Shown: positions 196 to 26,619 of the stretch, in pieces | How the letters are laid out: each line of letters begins with the position of its first letter | Numbering within the stretch: the first letter of the stretch is position 1 | Origin: Terriglobales bacterium | GTDB lineage: Bacteria > Acidobacteriota > Terriglobia > Terriglobales > Acidobacteriaceae | Assembly: GCA_035764005.1 (NCBI GenBank) | Contig: DASTZZ010000039.1 | Coordinates: forward strand, 1 to 37,976 | Length of the DNA: 37,976 bases | Direction: 5' to 3' | Position numbers and translations under genes: made by a program | The notes under the pieces: generated by a model | Databases searched by the model: none | Seen by the model: the letters and a program-made list of their open reading frames with translations, nothing else | What the model was told of the DNA's origin: nothing

Positions 196-789
196 TCAGA
201 TCGAGTCGTGCTCGCCGTGCTTCTGCACATACACGAGCGCGATGTTGCTGCCGCCGCTCTCCGGTTTGACGGCCACGATGTGTTGCTTGTCGTCAATCCC
301 GGTCTTTAGCTCTATGGTATGGCTGTCATCCCACCGGTAATTGGAGCCGTTGCCGCGTTCGCTTCCGCAGGTGAGTTGATTGTCCGAATCCTTGTTGTGG
401 TCGTGGAAGTTGACTTCGGTTCCCTTGCACTCCAGGTACTTCCCATATTTCTGCTTCAAGTCCTGCCGATACCAGGCGAGGACTTTGTCGGGCGAATCGT
501 CGCTGTGAAAGTTGAGCGCAATCACTTTTAACTGTCCCCACGGACTCGAGATGTTTACGTTAGCCTGGTCGTGATCGTGTCCCTCTTTGGGAACGAGCTT
601 CGCTCCAGGATAGACATTCAGTCCAGTCTCTTCCGGCTTCACCTGATCGGTGCGCACGCTGACCGAGCCGAAGGGGGTCTTCACGTCCACGTTGTCGCCA
701 TTGCCGGTCTTGCTGACGTTCACGCATGCTGTAAGCGACAAGGCAGCAGCAAGGATGGCGAGAGGAATGACTTCAATGCGCGATTTCAT
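196..789 (-). CDS. Small secreted lipoprotein of unknown function
   Basis: I do not recognise a named family. The 197-residue protein starts with a lipoprotein signal: a basic start (MKSR), a hydrophobic stretch, and the lipobox LTAC, which puts the modified cysteine near residue 22. The mature part is hydrophilic, rich in His, Asp and Lys, with segments such as GHDHDQ and FHDHNKD that could bind metal but could equally be simple surface loops. Two further cysteines (ECKGTE and LTCGSE) could form a disulfide in the periplasm. Its ATG overlaps the stop codon of the upstream GH3 gene (ATGA), so the two are very probably co-translated. The gene position suggests an envelope role linked to the GH3 enzyme, but that is inference only. 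Confidence 0.8.
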   Translation of the reverse strand: MKSRIEVIPLAILAAALSLTACVNVSKTGNGDNVDVKTPFGSVSVRTDQVKPEETGLNVYPGAKLVPKEGHDHDQANVNISSPWGQLKVIALNFHSDDSPDKVLAWYRQDLKQKYGKYLECKGTEVNFHDHNKDSDNQLTCGSERGNGSNYRWDDSHTIELKTGIDDKQHIVAVKPESGGSNIALVYVQKHGEHDSI

Positions 790-2729
790 TGGATTTGTGC
801 CGCTCCTGATGTTGTTTTCGGCAGCTCCGAGGCGACTCGCATCTCTTCCGGCTTGAGCTGCAGTCCGAATCCGCGATCGGCAATGCCGGGGAGGCTCACT
901 GGGAGCTTGCCTTTGAGTTGTATCTCGCCGAAGAGCAGCTTCACCGCGCTGCGCTCCGACGTAGGCGCGTTCGAATACGTACAGATATACGTTGCCACAT
1001 TGGGAAAGTTCATTGCCAGATATGGATTGCCCATAGCAATCACCGCCATCTTCGATCCGGCTGCATCGAGCAACTGCTGCATGAGATTTCCCGTAGCGTC
1101 GTTCAATCCAACGGTATTTGTGAGCTGACCGTTGACAACAGTTTGCTTCGCGGCAGTCGGCACAACGTAGGCTGCGACAACTACCTTCTGCGCTTGCTTC
1201 GCCGCTTCCACGATCTCAGGCGTCATGCCTGCGGCGATGGCGGAGTCGATGTAATAGACCTTGGTACCGCGAGCGCGCCGTCGCAGTTCAAGCTCGAAGA
1301 CGCGGCCATACTGGCTGCGCACATCGTCGGTGATTATGACGCCGACCACCGGCGAAGGGGTCCCTGGAATTCGATACGCTCCTGGCTGCGGGTTGGTTCC
1401 CGGCACTCGTGGTGCGGTGGCAGGCAATGGAAGGACCTGTCCACTGTCCCGCACCAGAGTCACGGCGGCATCCGCCACCTGCTGCGCAAAGTCAATGCTC
1501 TCCGGACGACTGACAATGTGGGGAATCTCTTCCATATCTACAAGCCGGGCTTTATAGAGGCCGAGCGAAGCCTTGGCACGAAGAATCTTCAGCACTGACG
1601 TGTCGATTTGCTGCTGGGAGATCTCCTTACTGCGGACTGCCTGAACGAGCCCGTTGAAAGCGCCATCCAGATCCGAAGGCAGCAGCACCATGTCGTTGCC
1701 TGCCTTCACCGCATCGACGGCAGCGCGACCAGAAGGATTGGGGCCGTTCTCAGGATAGAGCCGAGTAAGGCCGTGCATCTCGAGCGCGTCGGTGACGATA
1801 AGACCCTGGAAATGCAACTTGTCCTTGAGCAGATCGGTGACGATCTTGTGAGAGGTAGTGGCAACTTTGTCCGTATCAGATTCCAATGCGGGAATGGTTA
1901 CATGAGCAACCATAATCGAATCCACTCCGGCCTCGACTGCCTTCTCGAACGGCGGCAGCTCGACCGAATCGAGACGTGCGATATCGCCGGGAACCATCGC
2001 AACGCCAAGATGGGAATCGGTTGCGGTGTCGCCGTGTCCGGGAAAATGCTTCGCAGTACTAAGCATTCCGTACTTGCGCGAACCCTCTACGTAGGCCGCC
2101 ACCATCGCCGCTACCTGCTGCGGGTCCTCTCCAAATGACCGTGTATTGATAATCGGATTCTTGGGATTGATGTTCACATCCGCAACAGGAAAGTAGTTCC
2201 AGTGCACGCCAATCGCACGCGATTCCTGCGCCGTGATCTCCGCGAACTTCTCTTCGAACTCGGGATTGTAGGTGGCGCCGAACGCCATGGCATGCGGGAA
2301 CGCCGGCGTTTCGTTCAGACGCATCGAAAGACCACGCTCGAAGTCCGCAGCAACCAGCAGCGGCAGCTTCGATTCCTTCTGCAGCATGTTGGTCACTGCA
2401 GCAGCTTCATACGGCAGATCGCGGACGAGCAGTCCGTCAGAGACGCGAACCGTAAGAATGATCGAGCCCAGGTGATATTTCTTGATGGCATCGCGGACCT
2501 GCTGGTATTCGTCGCTCGCTACGTTGAGGAAGTCAGCGTAGGCGCGAATCTGGATCATCTGCCCGATTTTCTCTTCGAGCGACATCTTCTTGAGCGTCTT
2601 CTCCGCCCATTTATTTCCCTCAGAGGTGAGCTGCACCGGGCCGGCTTTTAGATACTTTTCTTCTTTGGCAGCGGCAGGCAGCACCAGCAGCAGAATTAAA
2701 AAGACAGCACGCAAGCGTGAATTGAACAT
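786..2729 (-). CDS. Secreted glycoside hydrolase family 3, NagZ-type
   Basis: Probable exported beta-N-acetylhexosaminidase or related GH3 glycosidase. I start it at the ATG at 2729 (647 residues), because this gives a classical signal peptide (MFNSRLRAVF followed by a Leu-rich core and AAAK) and avoids overlap with the esterase upstream, whose stop is at 2753. An earlier in-frame start at 2789 would put extra residues before the signal. The NagZ signature KHFPGHGDTATDSH lies at about residues 227-240, with Asp238/His240 as the general acid/base dyad of that subfamily, and the expected nucleophile is Asp314 in VTDALEM. The protein is longer than cytoplasmic NagZ (about 340 residues) and carries a C-terminal alpha/beta domain, as in Gram-positive NagZ and beta-glucosidases. 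Its location suggests periplasmic cell-wall or chitin-derived sugar turnover, but a plant-polysaccharide substrate cannot be excluded from sequence. Confidence 0.92.
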   Translation of the reverse strand: MFNSRLRAVFLILLLVLPAAAKEEKYLKAGPVQLTSEGNKWAEKTLKKMSLEEKIGQMIQIRAYADFLNVASDEYQQVRDAIKKYHLGSIILTVRVSDGLLVRDLPYEAAAVTNMLQKESKLPLLVAADFERGLSMRLNETPAFPHAMAFGATYNPEFEEKFAEITAQESRAIGVHWNYFPVADVNINPKNPIINTRSFGEDPQQVAAMVAAYVEGSRKYGMLSTAKHFPGHGDTATDSHLGVAMVPGDIARLDSVELPPFEKAVEAGVDSIMVAHVTIPALESDTDKVATTSHKIVTDLLKDKLHFQGLIVTDALEMHGLTRLYPENGPNPSGRAAVDAVKAGNDMVLLPSDLDGAFNGLVQAVRSKEISQQQIDTSVLKILRAKASLGLYKARLVDMEEIPHIVSRPESIDFAQQVADAAVTLVRDSGQVLPLPATAPRVPGTNPQPGAYRIPGTPSPVVGVIITDDVRSQYGRVFELELRRRARGTKVYYIDSAIAAGMTPEIVEAAKQAQKVVVAAYVVPTAAKQTVVNGQLTNTVGLNDATGNLMQQLLDAAGSKMAVIAMGNPYLAMNFPNVATYICTYSNAPTSERSAVKLLFGEIQLKGKLPVSLPGIADRGFGLQLKPEEMRVASELPKTTSGAAQIQ

Positions 2730-2752
2730 GAAGGCAAGATAACAGGTCGAAA

Positions 2753-3937
2753 TCACTTCCTGGTAGAAGCAGGCGAGTAGCCCTTCCACACGTACTCGAG
2801 CGCTTCGGCGAGCGTCTGCTGCTTGACCGCGCGATCCACGTGGCCGGCGTTGCGGGCGAAGACAAACTGGTAGTGATATCCCTTGGCCGCGAGTGCCTGC
2901 GCCATGCGTTCGTTTGCAAGCACCCAGTCATGCATGTTGTCGCGCATGGCATTCGGATTGAGGAGGTCGCGGTCACCCACTTCCATCCAGATCCTTATCG
3001 GCTTGCGTGGACTGCCGGGAATGAGATGCTCGTGAAACTCCCATGCGCCGTGAGGAGTCTGCGGATTGTAGGGCCATTGCTGATTTACGAAAGTCCCAGA
3101 ATAGGAAAGAACGCGGTGATACAACTCAGGGTGATACCACGCCATGATCAGCGCACAAGCCGCCCCGGAGCTGCCGCCCGTTGTCGCTCGTCCATCGGGA
3201 TCCTTCGTGAGTCTTACGTGAGCCTGCGCTTCGACCTGCGGCAGAACTTCGGTCTCCACGAACTCGGCATACTTTCCTGACATCGTGTCGTATTCGAGGC
3301 CACGCTCACTGCCTTGCGCGTCGCCACCTCCGTTGCCGATAGAAATCGCGATCATCGCCGGAAGCTTATGCTGAGCAATGAGCGAGTCGAGGGTGAGAAA
3401 GAGCAGGCGATCCGGACCATCGGCTCCGACAATAAATGGAGCGACGCTGCCGGCCAGGTACTGCTTTGGCACATACACCGCTACCTTCCGTCTGTAAGGC
3501 GCAGGGTGGCTGGTAGTCACGATCAGCTTGGCCGGATCCGCAGGATCAGGTGTGCCGAAAGTATTTGGATCGCGCGCAATACCCGGATAAATCGTGCTAT
3601 CGGAGGACTTCATCGTGAACTCGACGACGTTTCCGTTCGCAAGCGTGTCGTCGCTTGCCTGAAGCGCCGAAGCGATCTCCGGAGCCGGATTGTGCGTCGG
3701 TCCCAAAATGAAGTTTCCGTTCGCATCGGGCGAAGGCACCGTGCCATCGGGCAATTCTGTAGCCGCGACAAAGCCGGTGGAGTGAGGATCGCGTGTAGGC
3801 ATCGGAGGACGCGACGGATGTTGTGCCGGTGCAGGCGTTTGTCCCAGAATGGGACAGCGAGCAATTAAGAGAATAACGCCGAGCAGAGGGCCTGTAGAAC
3901 GCATAAACGCAACCGAACGGAAGTTAATCATGCCCAA
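2753..3937 (-). CDS. Secreted esterase, enterochelin-esterase-like alpha/beta hydrolase
   Basis: A 394-residue exported alpha/beta hydrolase of the esterase D / Fes (IroE-like) superfamily. The N-terminus is hydrophobic (GPLLGVILLIA) and is followed by a Pro-rich stretch, consistent with a signal peptide; internal starts at 3931 and 3904 are also possible and no clear ribosome binding site decides. The nucleophile elbow is GGSSG with Ser256. A likely acid is the Asp in VGDRDLLNP and a likely histidine is in AGHVDRAV near residue 366, giving a complete triad. Many members of this family in plant-biomass degraders are acetyl or feruloyl xylan esterases. Here that role is suggested only by the GH67-CE15 neighbour, which is transcribed divergently. 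It is followed after 23 bp by the GH3 gene and then the lipoprotein, a likely three-gene operon. Confidence 0.85.
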   Translation of the reverse strand: MGMINFRSVAFMRSTGPLLGVILLIARCPILGQTPAPAQHPSRPPMPTRDPHSTGFVAATELPDGTVPSPDANGNFILGPTHNPAPEIASALQASDDTLANGNVVEFTMKSSDSTIYPGIARDPNTFGTPDPADPAKLIVTTSHPAPYRRKVAVYVPKQYLAGSVAPFIVGADGPDRLLFLTLDSLIAQHKLPAMIAISIGNGGGDAQGSERGLEYDTMSGKYAEFVETEVLPQVEAQAHVRLTKDPDGRATTGGSSGAACALIMAWYHPELYHRVLSYSGTFVNQQWPYNPQTPHGAWEFHEHLIPGSPRKPIRIWMEVGDRDLLNPNAMRDNMHDWVLANERMAQALAAKGYHYQFVFARNAGHVDRAVKQQTLAEALEYVWKGYSPASTRK

Positions 3938-4126
3938 GCATTATCGCAGCGAAATCTCCGCGACCTCTTGTGTTTACCTCCGTGGCCTTCGTGTTCGCCT
4001 CTCTCAGTATTTGACTTCGCTGATTTGCGGTGCTCTACTGTGCCCCATCCCTTTAGTTCGCGTGTAAAACAATGTCTAAAGCGATTTAGACCAGCTTCTC
4101 ACGGCGAGCCTGGATTCTTACTGACG
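3938..4126. promoter_or_regulatory. Divergent intergenic region, with repeat fragment
   Basis: This gap separates the divergent esterase operon and the GH67-CE15 gene, so both promoters should lie here. I cannot point to convincing -35/-10 boxes. Positions about 3961-4000 hold a degenerate minus-strand copy of the dispersed CACGGAG-type repeat (CCTCCGTGGCCTTCGTG on the plus strand). An in-frame extension of the GH67 gene starting at 3968 covers this stretch but encodes Pro/Cys/Ser-rich sequence unlike a protein N-terminus, so I treat it as non-coding. Confidence 0.5.
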
Positions 4127-7100
4127 ATGCGCGCTGCAACTTCTCCCTACCTGCGACCGTTGCTGATTGTTCTTCTGTTCGCCGGCGTAATCCACGCTGA
4201 AACGGGCGAGCAGGCTTGGCTGCGCTACGCCCCTTTATCTGCTCAGGAAGCCAAGCAGTACGAATCGTTGCCTTCGAACCTCGTTGTGCTCGGCGACTCC
4301 GCTCTGCTCAAGAGTGCCCAACAGGAATTGACTCGCGGTGTCGAAGGCATGCTCGGCAAAGAGCTTGCCTCGTCGAATGCGCTGCCTTCCGGCGGCTCAG
4401 CTATCGTGCTGGGGACAGTTGAGTCGGTCCGCGCGGCGATTCCCGATTTGCAACTCCCGGCTTTGCATGAAGACGGCTACTGGCTTGCTACAAAGAAAGC
4501 TGGCGACCTGGAACGAATAGTCATCGTCGGCGGCGACGATCGCGGAGCGCTGTATGGGAGCTTTGCGCTGCTTCAGAAGATCGCGCTGGGCGAAAACATC
4601 GAATATCTGGAAGAGACGCAACAGCCGTACGCTCCACTGCGCTGGGTCGATCAATGGGACAACCTCGACGGTCGTATCGAGCGCGGATATGGCGGGCCCT
4701 CCATCTTTTTCGAAAACGGCTCAGTCCGCGCCGATCTCACCCGCGCTGCCGAATACGCGCGCCTGCTGGCCTCAATCGGGATCGATGGCTGCACGGTCAA
4801 CAACGTAAACGCCAATCCGAATGTTCTCGATGAGAGTTTCCTGCCGCAGCTCGCCCGCATTGCAGATGTTTTTCGCCCCTGGGGAGTGAGGCTCTCGATC
4901 TCGGTAGATTTCAGCAGCCCAAAGGTGATCGGCGGTCTCGATACCTTCGATCCGCTCGATGCGCGCGTTGCAGACTGGTGGAGCAAGCGCGTCGATGCCA
5001 TTTATCGACAGATTCCCGATTTCGCCGGATTCGTCGTGAAAGCCGACTCAGAAGGACGCCTCGGCCCTGCGACTTACAACCGCACTCCCGCCGATGCCGC
5101 CGACGTGATCGCCCGCGCGCTGAAGCCCCACGGAGGCATCGTTTTTTATCGCGCGTTCGTCTACAACCACCATCTCGATTGGCGTGATCCGAAGGCGGAC
5201 CGCGCAAACGCTGCCTACGACAACTTTCATCCGCTCGATGGCAAGTTCGACGACAACGTCGTGATCCAAATCAAGAACGGCCCCATCGATTTCCAGGTGC
5301 GCGAACCGGTTTCACCTTTAATCAGCGGACTGGAAAAAACGAACGAAGCTCTCGAGTTGCAGATCACGCAGGAGTATCTAGGCCAGGCTCGGCACCTGGT
5401 TTATCTGCCGACGATGTGGAAAGAGGTCCTCGACTTCGATCTCCACGCAAATCACCATGTCACTCTGACCAAGGACATCGTGGCCGGCCGCACCTTCCAT
5501 CGGCCACTCGGCGGCTTCGTCGGGGTTGCCAATGTGGGAATGGACGCCAACTGGATGGGCCATCCACTCGCCATGGCAAACGTGTACGGCTTCGGACGAC
5601 TGGCATGGAATCCGAATCTCACGGCCAGAGCCATCGCCGAAGACTGGACGCGGCTCACCTTCGGAAGCGATTCCGAAGTGGTCAACACGATCACCGACAT
5701 GCAGATGGCCTCATGGCACATCTACGAGAACTACACCGGCCCGCTCGGCGCCGGTACGCTGACTAATATCACCGGTCCGCATTACGGACCGGGCATCGAA
5801 TCGTCAGAGCGCAACGGCTGGGGTCAGTGGCATCGCGCCGATCACAACGGCATCGGCATGGATCGCACGGTTGCTACTGGGACCGGCTACACCGCGCAGT
5901 ACAGTCCCGAAGTGGCACAGATGTATGAGTCCCTCGCGACAACACCCGATGAGCTGTTGCTCTTCTTCCATCACGTGCCGTACACCTACAAGCTCCATTC
6001 CGGGAAGACTGTCATCCAGCACATCTACGATTCTCATTACGAAGGCGCGGAGCAAGCCGCCGGTCTCGTCCACGCATGGGAGCGCCTGAAAGGACGCATC
6101 GACGATGAGCGTTATGCCGCCACACTGGCGCGTCTCGAATACCAAAGCGGCCACGCAATCGTCTGGCGCGATGCCATTTGCAACTGGTTCCTTCGGACCT
6201 CCGGAATTCCTGATGCCAAAGGACGCGCCGGACATTTTCCCAATCGCCTGGAAGCCGAGTCGATGCACCTCAGCGGCTATCAGCCGGTGAACATTACACC
6301 GTGGGAGACAGCTTCCGGCGGCAAAGCTGTGCAGTGTCCTGCAGGCGCGAGTTGCGAGGCAGACTTCAAGTTTCCGAAGCCGACTGGCCAATACGAACTC
6401 GACATTCAGTACTTCGACATGCCTACTGGGCAAGCGAAGTTCCGCGTGCTCGTCGGCGGACACGAAGTTGATCACTGGATCGGAGACGATCATCTGCCGG
6501 CGCGAAAGCTCGACGGCGATTCCTCAACGCGTCGGCGCATCCATGACGTATCGCTGCATCAAGGAGAAGAGATCCGCATCGAAGGTACGCCGGACGGAGG
6601 CGATCCGGCGGCGCTCGACTACGTTGAGATCCACCCCGCATCCGAAGAGCAGGCCCCAAGCTATCCCGAACCGGCACACCTCACCGCCGAGCAGGACCAT
6701 CAGCGCACGATGGAGTTGCTGCACATCAGCTCGCTGCGCCCAGGACCGAGCGGCAATCCATCCGCTCCCAATGCGGCGAACACAGACGAGTCAAAGGTCC
6801 CGCCGTATACACTGCCCGATCCGCTTACGTTCAAAAGTGGGAAGAAGGTGAAAACGCCGAAAGACTGGTGGCAGAAGCGGCGTCCGGAAATCGTCGAAGA
6901 CTTCGATCGCGAGATCTACGGGCGCGTTCCGGCGAACGTTCCCAAAGTGGAATGGCAGGTCGCGAACGTCGAAGAAGAGAAAGTCGGGGCTGTTCCGGCA
7001 ATTACCAGGAAACTCATCGGGCGTGTAGATAACTCGGCGTACCCGCTGATCGATGTAAACATTCAGTTGACCTTGACCACGCCCGCGAGCGCCGCCGGCC

Positions 7101-7960
7101 CAGTGCCGGTGATCATGGAGTTCGGGTTCAGCCCGGAATTTATGGCCGCCATGGCGCGGCGGTTCGCTGCATTGCGCAACTCAACATCGGGGCCCACATG
7201 GCAGGAGCAAGTACTGGCGAAAGGCTGGGGCTACGCGATTCTGATTCCCACCACGATTCAGGCCGATAACGGAGCGGGGCTGACAGAAGGAATCATCGGC
7301 CTCACCAATAAAGGACAGCCGCGAAACCTTGATGACTGGGGCGCACTCCGGGCCTGGGCGTGGGGAGCAAGCCGAGCGCTCGATTACTTCGAGACGGATA
7401 AGGCAGTCGATGCCAAACGAGTCGGCATCGAGGGCCTCTCCCGATATGGGAAGGCCGCGCTGGTGACCATGGCGTATGATCAGCGCTTCGCCATCGGCTT
7501 CATCGGCTCCTCCGGCGAAGGCGGAGCCAAACTCTATCGCCGCATCTTCGGCGAGCAGGTGGAAAACATTGCTGCATCCGGCGAGTATCACTGGATGGCT
7601 GGCAACTTCCTGAAGTATGCCGGTCCGCTCACGACCAACGACCTGCCGGTCGATGCCAATGAACTCATCGCGTTGTGCGCTCCGCGTCCGCTATTCATCA
7701 GCACCGGCGCGCCTAAAGTCGAAGGCGGCTGGGTCGATGCGAAGGGCATGTTCCTCGGCGCCGTCGGCGCCGGTCCGGTTTACCGCCTGTTAGGAAAGAA
7801 AGATCTGGGCACAACGGAATTCCCGCCGATCGAAACGACACTGATCAGCGGCGACATTGCATTTCGTTCTCACAGCGGTGGGCACACGACAGGACCAAAC
7901 TGGCCGACGTTCCTGGAATTCGCGCAGAGGTATTTCGGGCACTCGCCTGCCGGAAAATAA
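4127..7960 (+). CDS. GH67 alpha-glucuronidase / CE15 glucuronoyl esterase fusion
   Basis: A 1277-residue exported two-enzyme protein. The ATG at 4127 is chosen because it opens a signal peptide (MRAATSPYLR, hydrophobic core, VIHAETG). Residues about 30-703 match GH67 alpha-glucuronidase, which removes (4-O-methyl)glucuronic acid from xylo-oligosaccharides: the KADSEG block, AAYDNF with Asp365, IQIKNGP, and VREPVSP with Glu393; Asp365 and Glu393 correspond to the family's two general-base carboxylates. QITQEYLGQ is also conserved. Residues about 704-835 look like a beta-sandwich carbohydrate-binding segment (RLEAESM to LDYVEIHP). After a linker, residues about 885-1277 match bacterial CE15 glucuronoyl esterases: GLSRYGK with nucleophile Ser1105, GEYHWMAGNF, LIALCAPRPL, and GGHTTGPNW with probable His1253. 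The two halves would act on the same side chain of glucuronoxylan, the esterase freeing it from lignin. Usual GH67 and CE15 proteins are about 700 and 400 residues and separate. Confidence 0.93.
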   Translation: MRAATSPYLRPLLIVLLFAGVIHAETGEQAWLRYAPLSAQEAKQYESLPSNLVVLGDSALLKSAQQELTRGVEGMLGKELASSNALPSGGSAIVLGTVESVRAAIPDLQLPALHEDGYWLATKKAGDLERIVIVGGDDRGALYGSFALLQKIALGENIEYLEETQQPYAPLRWVDQWDNLDGRIERGYGGPSIFFENGSVRADLTRAAEYARLLASIGIDGCTVNNVNANPNVLDESFLPQLARIADVFRPWGVRLSISVDFSSPKVIGGLDTFDPLDARVADWWSKRVDAIYRQIPDFAGFVVKADSEGRLGPATYNRTPADAADVIARALKPHGGIVFYRAFVYNHHLDWRDPKADRANAAYDNFHPLDGKFDDNVVIQIKNGPIDFQVREPVSPLISGLEKTNEALELQITQEYLGQARHLVYLPTMWKEVLDFDLHANHHVTLTKDIVAGRTFHRPLGGFVGVANVGMDANWMGHPLAMANVYGFGRLAWNPNLTARAIAEDWTRLTFGSDSEVVNTITDMQMASWHIYENYTGPLGAGTLTNITGPHYGPGIESSERNGWGQWHRADHNGIGMDRTVATGTGYTAQYSPEVAQMYESLATTPDELLLFFHHVPYTYKLHSGKTVIQHIYDSHYEGAEQAAGLVHAWERLKGRIDDERYAATLARLEYQSGHAIVWRDAICNWFLRTSGIPDAKGRAGHFPNRLEAESMHLSGYQPVNITPWETASGGKAVQCPAGASCEADFKFPKPTGQYELDIQYFDMPTGQAKFRVLVGGHEVDHWIGDDHLPARKLDGDSSTRRRIHDVSLHQGEEIRIEGTPDGGDPAALDYVEIHPASEEQAPSYPEPAHLTAEQDHQRTMELLHISSLRPGPSGNPSAPNAANTDESKVPPYTLPDPLTFKSGKKVKTPKDWWQKRRPEIVEDFDREIYGRVPANVPKVEWQVANVEEEKVGAVPAITRKLIGRVDNSAYPLIDVNIQLTLTTPASAAGPVPVIMEFGFSPEFMAAMARRFAALRNSTSGPTWQEQVLAKGWGYAILIPTTIQADNGAGLTEGIIGLTNKGQPRNLDDWGALRAWAWGASRALDYFETDKAVDAKRVGIEGLSRYGKAALVTMAYDQRFAIGFIGSSGEGGAKLYRRIFGEQVENIAASGEYHWMAGNFLKYAGPLTTNDLPVDANELIALCAPRPLFISTGAPKVEGGWVDAKGMFLGAVGAGPVYRLLGKKDLGTTEFPPIETTLISGDIAFRSHSGGHTTGPNWPTFLEFAQRYFGHSPAGK

Positions 7961-21377: not shown

Positions 21378-22373
21378 ATGGAATTTCTGTCTCGTTATTT
21401 GGCATCAACTCTTCTTCTCTCGCTGTTAGCAATCAGTGGATGCGCAGGGTCGAAGCGCACTGACATTGCGAGGACTCTGCGCTCGGAGGTCGCCTCACCC
21501 GAGGGAAGTCCGCAGATCATTGCTGCTTATCAGCCCTGGTTCGGACGCAGTGGGCACATCGACGTCGGCTACAACTCGCAAGATCCGAACGTGCTGGCGA
21601 ATCAGGTTGAGCACGCGAAGGACCTGAATATCAAAGCCTTCATCGTGAACTGGTATGGTCCGTCCCACGATTTCGAGAATCACAGCTATGCCGCCTTGCA
21701 GCAGGTTTCCGCCGAGCACGACTTCAAGACGGCAATCATGTACGACGAGAGCGTGGATGATCCAAGCCGGGCGACTGAGCAGGCGATCTCCGATCTGCAG
21801 TACGCCTATGAGCACTACATCGGCCCCCATGCAACTGTCCCTCGCGATGCTTACCTGACCTTCGACGGTCGCCCGATGATCTTCATCTTTCCCAAATCGG
21901 GAGACACAGACTGGAAGCGCGTGAAGCAGGCGGTAGGCGGATGGGAACAGCCGCCGGTGCTGCTATACGAAGATGGCGACGCCAAGAATTGGGGCGCATT
22001 CGACGGTTATTACGCGTGGGTCTCGCCCGGCAAAAAAGGGTGGTCACGCGACGGCAGCAACTGGGGCCGCACTTATCTCGAAAACTTCTACAAACGCCTG
22101 GCCGATGAGCCAGACAAGATCGCGGTTGGCGCCGCGTGGCCGGGTTTCGATGACTCCAAGGCAGAATGGGGCTCAGGTCGCAAAATGGACGCCCGCTGCG
22201 GTAAAACGCTTGAGGATTCGCTCAATCTCTATCGCCGCTACTTTCCGGCCGATCGCCCGTTGCCGTTCCTGATGATCGTCACGTGGAATGATTACGAAGA
22301 AGGAACAGCCATCGAGCGCGGGATCGGAAACTGCGGGAGCAAGAAGCCAGATAAGGCCCTCGCTATGCGCTAA
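21378..22373 (+). CDS. GH99/GH71-like glycoside hydrolase lipoprotein
   Basis: A 331-residue lipoprotein of the glycosyl hydrolase family 99-like group (endo-alpha-mannosidase / alpha-glucanase fold). The N-terminus has a lipobox (LLAISGC). The barrel begins IIAAYQPWFGRSGHIDVGY, a pattern typical of this group, followed by KAFIVNWYGP, LLYEDGD, and near the C-terminus TWNDYEEGTAIERGIG, which corresponds to the WNxxxEGT-x-E block where the catalytic carboxylates lie. The exact specificity cannot be assigned; the group covers alpha-mannan, alpha-glucan and uncharacterised enzymes. It should sit in the outer or inner membrane facing the periplasm or exterior. It follows the Ig-like lipoprotein, 345 bp away, on the same strand. 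Confidence 0.85.
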   Translation: MEFLSRYLASTLLLSLLAISGCAGSKRTDIARTLRSEVASPEGSPQIIAAYQPWFGRSGHIDVGYNSQDPNVLANQVEHAKDLNIKAFIVNWYGPSHDFENHSYAALQQVSAEHDFKTAIMYDESVDDPSRATEQAISDLQYAYEHYIGPHATVPRDAYLTFDGRPMIFIFPKSGDTDWKRVKQAVGGWEQPPVLLYEDGDAKNWGAFDGYYAWVSPGKKGWSRDGSNWGRTYLENFYKRLADEPDKIAVGAAWPGFDDSKAEWGSGRKMDARCGKTLEDSLNLYRRYFPADRPLPFLMIVTWNDYEEGTAIERGIGNCGSKKPDKALAMR

Positions 22374-22709: not shown

Positions 22710-23073
22710 ATGAGAATCCGTACTTCATCCGCGATTGATCCGGTTAGAGCACCGGCTTCGCCAAGGTCATCAACTTTGTACAGTCGATTTCTGTCCGACG
22801 TCGGAATCAGTAGACCCAATTCCGTCTCATTTGAACCCTCCGACTTTTCATATCTCGTTTGCAGGATGTACGAAAACTCATATTGAAATGCACAGTCTGA
22901 GTACCTACTCGTCGGTACAGATGGGAGACGCTGAAGTGTAGTCGTGACCAAGATTGCCCCTCTCGTCCCTAACAGTTCACCTTCCATCTCTCGTCCCACT
23001 TTTTGTCACCTGTTACGGCAGCGCGGATGCACCTTCCTCCCAGAGCGCAAGAAAAGCTCAGGAGAAGAATCGA
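22710..23073. other. Intergenic region upstream of the TonB-dependent receptor
   Basis: This 364-bp gap carries no supported gene; an in-frame extension of the receptor from 22954 is Pro/Ser-rich and precedes a much better start. TCCGACGTCGGA (22794-22805) is a perfect 12-bp palindrome and a candidate operator. AGGAG (23060-23064) is the receptor's ribosome binding site. Confidence 0.5.
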
Positions 23074-26000
23074 ATGACACTGCGTTGCAAAAGTTTTGAA
23101 AGTGCGCTCGCGAGAGTCGCGAGCGCGATCGCCAGCTTCTCTATTTTGCTGCTCCTACTTTCCTCACTGACATTTGGCCAGGGAATTACGACAGGTTCGA
23201 TTTCCGGCAGTGTGCAGGATCCACAGCAACAGGTGATTCCGAATGCCGCGGTGACCGCGGTCCAGATTGGGACTAATACGGCATTTACGGGAAGGACAAA
23301 CTCTGTAGGTGCCTTCGAGATTCGCGGCCTGCCGGTAGGCACCTACAACGTGACCATTGAAGCTTCAGGATTCAGCAAGACGCAAATCAACAATGTCGCG
23401 ACCAACGCCGGACGAGCAACTTCGGTTGGTCTGCAAACTTTGGGAGTAGCCTCCACGCAGGAGTCTGTCACAGTCGAAGCGAGTGCGCCGATTCTGCAAA
23501 CCGATACGATGCAGATTGGCGAAAGCTTTCAGACCAAAAAGCTGGCCGACCTTCCGGTTGGCAATGGCCTCGATATTGTGACCTTGTTCACCCCGGGCGT
23601 AGCTCCCGCCGGCGATTCCGGATTCAGCAATCAAGGAGGTGCGCAGTTCGGCACTAACGGTCAACGCGCTCGCAATAACAATTTCCAGCTCGACGGGCAG
23701 AGCAACAACGACACCTCAATCGGCGGCCCGCTGATCTTTTTCGGGAATCAGGACGCAGTTGCGGAAATCCAGGTTCTGACGAACTACAGCGCGGAGTACG
23801 GACGCAACACCGGAACGGTAGTGAATTATATTACCAAATCGGGAACCAACAATTTCCATGGATCGGCCTATGAGATTTACAACGGCAATTGGCTCGACTC
23901 ACTAGCCAATCAGGACAAGTCACCACTGTTCGGCGTTTGTCCGAAGGGCGTTGCGGAAGGCAGCGCCACCGACTTCACACCATCCTGCACAAAAGCTGTA
24001 GTCCCGCGAAACGTTGATAACCGCTATGGGGGCACGATCGGTGGGCCAATCGTCAAAGATAAGCTCTGGTTCTTTGGATCAGCAAATATCGAGCCAATTC
24101 GCACCGGACCGACGCTTGCTTCCTCAGGCGGTAAGCTCACGCCCACGGCGAACGGTCTTGCGCAATTGGCTGCAGCGTTCCCCAACAACGCCGCGGTTGC
24201 TGCCCTAAAGGCAGTTGGGCCCCTCGCGGTCACGAAAGGCACCCTCACTGTTGGAGCGCCACAGACCCAGTTCGTGGATGGCGTTCCGATTGAGTTCGCG
24301 ACCGTTACCCGCAACGTCGATGCGATCTCCAACGATTACGAGGGAACGGGACGCCTCGATTATCAGCTTTCCCAAAATGACAAGATCTTTGGCCGCTATA
24401 TCTACCAGAAGCAGTTATTCACGAACGTAGCGACTACCAACCTCGCCGGAGTGGCGGCGGGACAGTTTGTCGATATTCCTGCCCAGACGTATCAGATCGG
24501 CGCGGATTGGGCGCATACTTTTTCGCCGACGCTCATCAACCAGGCGCGGTTCAGCTACAACAATACGACCGTCGGATTCGAGAACGGCGGATTCCCAGAT
24601 TGCAACCGAGGCAACTTCACCAAGTGCCCGACCCAGGTCACTTTCAGCGATAACACGCTCGGATTCGGCGAGCCTACCGGCTTTCCCCAGGGCCGAGATG
24701 TAATCGATTATCAAGTCCAGGACAACGCGACGAAACAAATCGGAACGCACGCGATCAAGTTCGGAGGAGAATTCGCGCGGCAGAATCAGCCGAACTTCTT
24801 CCTGCCGAACTCAGCCGGCGTGTTTACCTTCTCCTGCTTGGCGAGCTGCAAGTCGGGCCAGCAGAGCGACTTCATCAGCAACACTGCCTCCTCGTTCCTC
24901 TTTGCGGATGGTCCTCCAAGCGAAACCTTCCTGGAGAACGATGGCGCCTTTTATCTTCAGGATGACTGGAAGCTGCGCAGCAATCTGACGCTCACGCTGG
25001 GTCTGCGTTATGAGATCGCTTCGCAGGCGATCAATGTGCTGCATGACATTACTGTGCAGCGCGAGACCAATCCCTCGACCGCCTTCTGGAACCAGAGCCT
25101 TCCACTTTCACGTAGAACGCTTCCGGCGATTCCGATCGCATCGAAAAACTTTGCGCCAGTTCTGGGCTTTGCCTATTCGCCGAGCGGCGGCTGGTTCGGA
25201 AACAATGCTACCGTCATTCGCGGGGGATTCAGAATTGCCTATGATCCTGAGTTCTATAACCTCTTTACGAATGTTGCCGGCGGCGCTCCATTTATTAATC
25301 TTGGCCAGGTGACCAATTGCCCGAACTGCTTGCCCGCTTCGGGAAATGGCGCCGATGTTCGCTCTGCTGACCTTGGCCTGATCGCCCGCGGCGTTGATCC
25401 GGGAACACGCAAGCAAACGATCGTCGCACCCAATCTTCACAATCCCTACGCCGAGCAGTGGAATTTTGGCGTTCAACGGCAGTTTGGATCCAGGATCGTG
25501 GGCGAAGCTCGCTATGTGGGCAATCACGGCGTCGGCTTGTTCCAGGACCTCGATGTAAATCCCGCTCTTGGTCCGCTCATCGCCGCAGGATACTCGAACG
25601 TAATTCCCTCAGGACTGACGCCCTGCACTACGGCCGGCACTCCAGGGTTTGCTGTGGGATACGCGAACTGCGATCGCACACGTATCCTTTCGCGTGCCAA
25701 TGTGGGAATGTCTTACTACAACGGCCTGCAGACACGCCTGGACGTGCAGGGATGGCAAGGCATCACCGCCGGTGCGACCTACACGTACAGCCACACCATT
25801 GATACCTCAAGTGAGGTGTTCAACAGTCTGGGCGGCGGCAGCACCCTGGCTTATCCGCAGAACCCGTTCAATGTGACGGCAGCCGAGCGCGCGAACAGCG
25901 GGATCGATTATCCGCACATTGCGACCGTGTACTTGTTGTATGAGCTGCCGTTCTTCTCCGATCAGCATGGCATTCTCGGGCATCTGCTGGGAGGTTGGGA

Positions 26001-26619
26001 GATCAATCCGGCCTATCGCTACACCAGCGGACAGCCGTATACGCCGGTGGAGACGCCGGGAAGCAGTCTGGCGACGAGCCCAGCTACAAGCGCTATCTCC
26101 GCCACACTCTGTGATCCAACTGGAGCCTTTAGTACTCAGGTTTCAAACTGCCGTCCAATCGTGAGCAATCCGAACGCGCCTGTGGACACGGTCGGAGCCT
26201 ACACCGACGGCTTGCAACTGGTGAACTACTACACCGGCGCGCCTATCAGCAACAGCGCTGTTCATTGGATCATTAACGATGTGAATGCAGCCACAGTGCT
26301 GGGTACGCCGTTCGGAGGCAGTGGACGCAACAGCGTACGCGGCGACACCATCAGCCAGTTGAATCTTTCGGTGCTTAAGAACTTTAAGCTTTCGGAAAGA
26401 TTCACGATGCAACTCCGCGGCGTGGCCTACAACGTGATGAATCGCCAATACCGAGGTGTTCCCGATCCCGTCATCGATGATGGCAACTTCGCAGATGCGC
26501 AGGGCTCATTCGGCAACACGTTCTTCAATAGCAACGGCGGCAACCCGCCTCAGGCCAATTCGGTCTTCTCCGGCATCGATCGACGGAGAATCGAAGTGGG
26601 CGCGAAAATTATTTTCTAG
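23074..26619 (+). CDS. Oar-like TonB-dependent outer-membrane receptor
   Basis: A 1181-residue outer-membrane protein. The ATG at 23074 is chosen because AGGAGAAG lies upstream at the right spacing and it opens a signal peptide (MTLRCKSFE, then a Leu/Ser-rich core ending TFGQ). Residues about 35-125 form a carboxypeptidase-regulatory-like domain (GSISGSVQDPQQQVIPNAAV, GLPVGTYNVTIEASGF). The TonB plug follows, with NNNFQLDGQSNNDTSIGG and EYGRNTGTVVNYITKSGTNNFHGSAYE, which are diagnostic of the Oar group. The remaining part, about 850 residues, is the 22-strand barrel with alternating aromatic strands, ending in Phe (VGAKIIF). Substrate unknown; members of this expanded family in Acidobacteria are thought to import or bind glycans and other large ligands. 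It is followed by a clear terminator, so it is transcribed alone. Confidence 0.94.
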   Translation: MTLRCKSFESALARVASAIASFSILLLLLSSLTFGQGITTGSISGSVQDPQQQVIPNAAVTAVQIGTNTAFTGRTNSVGAFEIRGLPVGTYNVTIEASGFSKTQINNVATNAGRATSVGLQTLGVASTQESVTVEASAPILQTDTMQIGESFQTKKLADLPVGNGLDIVTLFTPGVAPAGDSGFSNQGGAQFGTNGQRARNNNFQLDGQSNNDTSIGGPLIFFGNQDAVAEIQVLTNYSAEYGRNTGTVVNYITKSGTNNFHGSAYEIYNGNWLDSLANQDKSPLFGVCPKGVAEGSATDFTPSCTKAVVPRNVDNRYGGTIGGPIVKDKLWFFGSANIEPIRTGPTLASSGGKLTPTANGLAQLAAAFPNNAAVAALKAVGPLAVTKGTLTVGAPQTQFVDGVPIEFATVTRNVDAISNDYEGTGRLDYQLSQNDKIFGRYIYQKQLFTNVATTNLAGVAAGQFVDIPAQTYQIGADWAHTFSPTLINQARFSYNNTTVGFENGGFPDCNRGNFTKCPTQVTFSDNTLGFGEPTGFPQGRDVIDYQVQDNATKQIGTHAIKFGGEFARQNQPNFFLPNSAGVFTFSCLASCKSGQQSDFISNTASSFLFADGPPSETFLENDGAFYLQDDWKLRSNLTLTLGLRYEIASQAINVLHDITVQRETNPSTAFWNQSLPLSRRTLPAIPIASKNFAPVLGFAYSPSGGWFGNNATVIRGGFRIAYDPEFYNLFTNVAGGAPFINLGQVTNCPNCLPASGNGADVRSADLGLIARGVDPGTRKQTIVAPNLHNPYAEQWNFGVQRQFGSRIVGEARYVGNHGVGLFQDLDVNPALGPLIAAGYSNVIPSGLTPCTTAGTPGFAVGYANCDRTRILSRANVGMSYYNGLQTRLDVQGWQGITAGATYTYSHTIDTSSEVFNSLGGGSTLAYPQNPFNVTAAERANSGIDYPHIATVYLLYELPFFSDQHGILGHLLGGWEINPAYRYTSGQPYTPVETPGSSLATSPATSAISATLCDPTGAFSTQVSNCRPIVSNPNAPVDTVGAYTDGLQLVNYYTGAPISNSAVHWIINDVNAATVLGTPFGGSGRNSVRGDTISQLNLSVLKNFKLSERFTMQLRGVAYNVMNRQYRGVPDPVIDDGNFADAQGSFGNTFFNSNGGNPPQANSVFSGIDRRRIEVGAKIIF

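Follow-up and report, generated by a model that had tools for sequence, protein, structure and literature searches.

We describe a gene that joins a GH67 alpha-glucuronidase and a CE15 glucuronoyl esterase in one chain, with a jelly-roll module between them. It lies in a 37,976-nucleotide stretch of DNA (hereafter the window) from a Terriglobales bacterium of the Acidobacteriaceae (contig DASTZZ010000039.1, assembly GCA_035764005.1), and its parts are listed in Table 1. The fusion of GH67 to CE15 is real and such joining seems to be rare. Its product is probably exported and combines two enzymes that would complete the release of (4-O-methyl)glucuronic acid from pieces of glucuronoxylan that remain ester-linked to lignin fragments.

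The gene opens with an ATG at 4127 and closes with a stop codon at 7958-7960, with 0 internal stops, and the coordinates, strand and single open frame given in a preliminary description of the sequence were right. The same frame extends open upstream as far as a TTG at 3968. A start at ATG 4127 gives a signal-peptide-like N-terminus, as judged by eye, suggesting that the protein is exported; no strong ribosome-binding site was seen before this ATG. No NCBIfam model matched the fusion protein over its cut-off. The preliminary description had also placed complete GH67 and CE15 domains in the one chain, which was borne out by a Pfam domain search and by matches to the sequences of solved structures.

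All three Pfam models of GH67 score above their curated cut-offs: the N-terminal, middle and C-terminal models match residues 30-148, 153-476 and 478-700 with E values of 4e-29, 5.9e-149 and 2.2e-97 (101.7, 496 and 325.4 bits against 24.3, 23.5 and 27). Of the solved alpha-glucuronidases, 1k9d, the Geobacillus stearothermophilus GH67, matches residues 28-700 (743 bits) and 1gqi, presumably Cellvibrio japonicus GlcA67A, residues 26-697 (531 bits). In alignment with 1k9d, where E285, D364 and E392 are presumably the catalytic residues, the predicted acid is E309 (5051-5053) in KADSEG and the predicted bases are D388 (5288-5290) in GPIDFQ and E416 (5372-5374) in ITQEY. Among the motifs that had suggested GH67 in the preliminary description, KADSEG was well chosen, as it holds the catalytic acid, while AAYDNF and VREPVSP are conserved but are not the sites of the catalytic bases. 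E309, D388 and E416 are kept in all four fusions known to us (see below), as is K383; K383 and R342, the latter read in the window protein only, are presumably carboxylate-binding residues of GH67.

The Pfam CE15 model, GCE_fung, matches residues 1070-1223 (E 1.4e-29, 104 bits against a cut-off of 27) over only profile positions 76-231. The CE15 domain can be taken as complete because the Teredinibacter turnerae CE15 (TtCE15A, 6hsw) matches residues 851-1269 with 419-421 bits. An alignment of 27 CE15s places the predicted nucleophile, Ser1105 (7439-7441), together with Arg1106 and Lys1109 in GxSRxGK, and the other predicted site residues are His1253 (7883-7885), Trp1202 and Glu1143. The Ser-His pair (S1105 and H1253), R1106 and the glucuronic acid-binding Lys and Trp (K1109 and W1202) are kept in 4 of 4 fusions, and E1143 aligns with the sugar-binding Glu-305 of OtCE15A. 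The canonical position of the triad acid is occupied by Ser1128, and the likely acid is Glu1199 (7721-7723) on the other loop, in a column that is acidic in all 27 rows (20 E, 7 D).

The same architecture was found in three further genomes. Among the matches listed for a sample of 398 genomes of the family, 219 genomes match, 5 of them end to end, and 4 are truly fused. All four fused genomes belong to the genus of the window, where the fusion occurs in 4 of 6 genomes and in 3 of the 3 that are at least 90% complete. A frameshift, which the preliminary description had raised as a possible artefact, or an assembly joining is ruled out since the same unbroken frame is present in four separate genomes. 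Besides that of the window genome, no fusion is among the listed matches from 396 genomes of the phylum (74 matching), and none is among those from 296 Bacteroidota genomes (62 matching) or 294 Planctomycetota genomes (71 matching). In these genome searches no more than two candidate regions were scored in each genome, so that distant or partial fusions could be missed, and the phyla covered were Acidobacteriota, Bacteroidota (the phylum of Larkinella) and Planctomycetota (the phylum of Limnoglobus), with Verrucomicrobiota left out. In plasmids, 80 of 72,556 records had any match and 0 covered 80% of the query, and a scan of genome contigs found one fused locus, L001, in the best 80 of 590 stretches.

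Several candidates were set aside. Locus L002 (taken to be that of genome G009), which could pass for a fifth fusion, carries at 2257-6147 a GH67-module gene and, after about 42 bases, a CE15 gene of a distant clade (39% identical), in frames of 857 and 425 amino acids. L036 consists of three genes, for a GH67-module protein, a ROK regulator and a CE15, and the frame of L003 ends after the module. Two long CE15 frames are also not GH67 fusions: that of L065 (3006-6311) is a Flavitalea chain in which a SASA (CE20-like) esterase with a GH2-type stretch is joined to CE15, and that of L079 has no further Pfam domain.

The four fused proteins are 73-85% identical. Their ratio of nonsynonymous to synonymous substitution rates (dN/dS) is 0.05-0.08 for CE15, 0.085-0.12 for GH67 and, where computable, 0.15-0.50 for the 14-codon linker, with dS near saturation in pairs that include the window gene; these values point to purifying selection on both enzyme domains. 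Thirteen compared columns are identical in the four proteins; one of these columns (343) is not an active-site residue. The fused form is a single change on the CE15 tree (27 rows; support 76/99, 80% of 200 bootstraps) and also on the GH67 tree (69 rows; Shimodaira-Hasegawa-like approximate likelihood ratio test 98, by a quick method).

The view of the preliminary description that GH67 and CE15 enzymes both target the (4-O-methyl)glucuronic acid branch of xylan is supported by PMC3879575, PMC6484129 and PMC10313548 (papers are cited here for their accessible text). Xylanases of GH10 leave UXX, a GH67 substrate (PMC3879575), in which the uronic acid is on the non-reducing-end xylose and is taken by GH67 (PMC3879575, PMC4870768). 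The pocket of GH67 is deep and set in a blind, rigid canyon (PMC3879575), and it would accept the uronic acid only at that end. Because of this geometry an ester on the carboxyl should block GH67, so CE15 would act first, hydrolysing the ester that links the carboxyl of the uronic acid to a lignin-side alcohol. Once freed, the acid would have its alpha-1,2 bond cleaved by GH67. According to PMC10313548, glucuronoyl esterase and alpha-glucuronidase probably cooperate on lignin-carbohydrate esters; that paper cites synergy of the two in vitro and states that prior glucuronidase action is not needed for the esterase.

The preliminary description had guessed that the middle segment is a jelly roll, and rightly so. 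An AlphaFold2 model built with 60 sequences is an all-beta jelly roll with a predicted local distance difference test score (pLDDT) of 92.1 and a predicted template modelling score (pTM) of 0.85, and two cysteines are invariant across the 60 module relatives. Foldseek matched the model to carbohydrate-binding modules (CBMs), namely CBM6 8j3y (E 4.9e-8), CBM36 1w0n (1.4e-6) and two CBM35 structures with bound uronic acids, 2w47 (2.2e-6) and 4qb2 (1.2e-5), at 14-20% identity and with a template modelling score by query length of about 0.65. Cycloisomaltooligosaccharide glucanotransferase, GH87, laminin and Cry proteins are also in the list; with such other jelly rolls among the matches, the ligand cannot be read from the fold. 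No significant Pfam CBM match was obtained for residues 704-842 or among the 60 relatives; CBM_35 was reached in 2 of the 60 (best E 0.16), the window's own module not being one of them, and the best E of any Pfam family, 0.0027, was to an unrelated model in one member. The probable role of the module is either to bind a sugar or uronic acid or just to pack against the GH67 domain.

The module is no invention of the fusion, as it is common in unfused GH67s. Counting duplicates, the examined loci hold 73 frames with GH67 and module but no CE15, 8 that are fused (from 4 distinct proteins), 14 with GH67 in which no module was detected, some of which stop at a contig end, and 31 with CE15 only. 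By alignment, the fused chain is an ordinary GH67-module protein followed by a 14-residue linker and CE15. The CE15 part starts at about the point at which conservation sets in among stand-alone CE15s, with PEPAHLTAEQDH against SPPVQLTAEQDH in L074. No second signal peptide was seen at the join when the fused proteins were compared, and CE15 is therefore probably exported only as part of the whole protein.

Elsewhere the two enzymes are separate genes, which are sometimes adjacent. The GH67-module gene directly precedes the CE15 gene in L002 and is separated from it by the ROK gene in L036, while in three genomes of one genus (G031, G180 and G095) CE15 precedes GH67, with 87-153 bases between the matched stretches (frames checked in G180). 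In G180 (locus L138, 7348-12773), genes for CE15, GH67-module and a ManD-type dehydratase follow one another on the same strand, as though they made up one operon that leads from the ester to glucuronate breakdown. The third gene is over the equivalog cut-off for ManD (D-mannonate dehydratase), with a galactonate dehydratase-family subfamily model scoring slightly higher. Full-length relatives of it, 70-72% identical, are present elsewhere on the genome in 4 of 4 fused genomes, and G154 has a partial relative. Among genomes showing both genes, the two are at most 5 kb apart in 5 of 32 and at most 10 kb apart in 7 of 32 for the phylum, in 3 and 5 of 28 for Bacteroidota, and close in 0 of 4 for Planctomycetota; these counts leave out the window genome and G872, G941, G939, G1022 and G947 (CE15 matches below 100 bits).

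A further step is to suppose a relay, in which the module would keep hold of the uronic acid branch, so that CE15 passes the acid it has freed on to the GH67 of its own chain; the arrangement would have arisen a single time, within one acidobacterial genus, out of genes that were neighbours. We put this forward tentatively and regard it as rather doubtful. A stronger candidate, and a serious one even if we stop short of favouring it, is a neutral gene fusion, in which both domains work no faster than they would separately and the chain was kept because co-export and equal dosage do no harm or bring a slight benefit. The confinement of the fusion to one genus among the matches listed from the family sample is consistent with neutrality, as is the fact that other genera are served by neighbouring separate genes. 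Joining may couple the two steps, but for a CE15-GH8 enzyme the full-length protein did not differ significantly from a mix of its domains, and the same is cited for CkXyn10C-GE15A (PMC8417218); a later paper on the latter holds that the full-length enzyme is still needed to test coupling (PMC8280721). Against neutrality, the fusion has been retained down to about 74% identity with both domains strongly constrained in all four proteins, and the CE15 of the fusion stays joined although the sister genomes hold other CE15 genes.

The order and the substrate of the two activities could also differ from those proposed. It is quite unlikely that glucuronidase first cuts xylan from the esterified glucuronic acid, leaving the esterase to free the acid from lignin, as the presumed carboxylate-binding residues are present in the window GH67. 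Such an order has been proposed generally for alpha-glucuronidase and glucuronoyl esterase (PMC5329029), but it would require a bulky ester to fit the deep pocket of GH67 (PMC3879575). We also think it unlikely that the substrates of the CE15 domain are methyl or small alkyl esters of uronic acids instead of lignin esters. While CE15s in pectin-type loci and with dual activity on glucuronic and galacturonic acid esters exist (PMC10807430), the closest relative with a solved structure, TtCE15A, favours bulky benzyl esters and is inactive on methyl galacturonoate (PMC6484129), and the partner in the window protein belongs to a xylan glucuronidase family.

Several observations weigh against the role proposed for the window protein on esterified glucuronoxylan. 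The window gene has just a GH3 and an esterase as neighbours, and the contig ends 4.1 kb upstream; of the other fused genomes G135 alone has a GH10 beside the fusion (the G108 and G054 stretches have none), while a second CE15 is beside it in G135 and G054 only. Most unfused GH67 and CE15 pairs are not close, many being on different contigs, and no match at all was found in two members of the genus, whose genomes are 88% and 83% complete. A model of residues 149-1277 has no confident domain arrangement (pTM 0.63), with the linker and stretches of CE15 at pLDDT below 50. In the CE15 site, Glu1199 is three residues before the conserved Trp rather than two as in TtCE15A and the canonical place is Ser1128; given the longer loop and the spacing off by one, Glu1199 is best called the likely triad acid.

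In G135 (L001/L113) the fusion is accompanied by LacI, a GH10 carrying CBM4_9, a GDSL esterase, a second CE15 and a ROK regulator, which by gene content is a xylan-type locus. A blast comparison found the LacI, GDSL esterase, ROK, GH3-like and beta-barrel genes kept in the G108 and G054 stretches, and G108 has a shorter CE15 about 10 kb from the fusion. The second CE15 near the fusion (L113, 5492-7591) spans 700 residues and matches the full length of GCE_fung (207 bits); it is also found in G054, and a similar gene is present in the window's genome at C74. That genome has a strong GH10 match and two partial ones, a GH115 and two additional CE15-like genes. In the window, the NCBIfam hits of the GH3 neighbour, to beta-xylosidase and further GH3 models, all fall below cut-off. 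Farther along are a protein weakly like GH71 and GH99, both below the Pfam cut-off (21378-22373), and a large TonB-receptor-type outer-membrane beta-barrel protein with a carboxypeptidase-like N-terminal domain (22954-26619).

Table 1. Features of the fusion gene and its divergent neighbours in the window
Feature	Position	Strand	Basis or remark
Complete fusion gene	4127..7960	+	1277 aa, GH67 - jelly-roll module - CE15; single open frame
Signal-peptide-like N-terminus, residues 1-24, apparent cut after HA	4127..4198	+	read from translation
GH67 alpha-glucuronidase, N/middle/C domains, residues 30-700	4214..6226	+	Pfam; 743 bits to 1k9d
Middle module, CBM6/35/36-like jelly roll, residues 704-838	6236..6640	+	AlphaFold2, Foldseek, 60-row alignment
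Linker, residues 839-852, joining the end of GH67-module to the start of CE15	6641..6682	+	alignment with stand-alone CE15s
CE15 glucuronoyl esterase, residues 853-1272	6683..7942	+	6hsw match; 27-row CE15 alignment
Divergent neighbour, putative esterase (PF00756)	2753..3937	-	Pfam
Divergent neighbour, GH3 glycoside hydrolase	786..2789	-	Pfam

If the relay holds, the protein would be a dedicated enzyme for clearing lignin-carbohydrate links. The natural single chain makes the benefit of coupling an esterase to a glucuronidase directly testable and could be a ready tool for wood-derived xylan. The gene fusion and the neighbourhood together support the idea that in Acidobacteriota CE15 and GH67 can belong to a single pathway. 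The title of Raji 2021 reportedly refers to the coordinated action of glucuronoyl esterase and alpha-glucuronidase. No GH67-CE15 enzyme is named among the papers listed, by name, title or abstract start, or in the accessible text examined (subscription papers, CAZy and InterPro fall outside this scope), in line with the preliminary description, which knew of no characterised example. An uncharacterised one is quite possibly listed elsewhere; the L001 contig is public.

Compared with the solved GH67s 1k9d and 1gqi, the window protein is alike over the whole GH67 length with the catalytic residues in place; the matches span GH67 alone, whereas the window protein continues with the jelly-roll module and CE15. 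Acidobacterial GH67s with a C-terminal jelly-roll module have the same GH67 and module as the fusion, but their CE15 is a separate gene. TtCE15A, like the window CE15, has Ser at the canonical acid position and an acidic residue on the other loop, but that loop is two residues longer in the window CE15, which is joined to GH67. To our knowledge, none of the partners in BeCE15A-Rex8A, CkXyn10C-GE15A and OtCE15C removes glucuronic acid itself. These chains resemble the window protein in joining CE15 to a second glycosidase, the partner being an exo-oligoxylanase in the CE15-GH8 BeCE15A-Rex8A (PMC8417218), a xylanase in the GH10-CE15 CkXyn10C-GE15A (PMC8280721) and an uncharacterised GH106 in the CE15-GH106 OtCE15C (PMC10807430). 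Overall, CE15 has been described joined to GH8, GH10, GH106, CE3 and CE20-type domains, and glycoside hydrolase and carbohydrate esterase partners are common among bacterial CE15s in PMC10313548, the domain section of which names no GH67. Natural chains of CE15 and a glycosidase are already known, and within the papers listed it is GH67 as the partner of CE15 that seems new.

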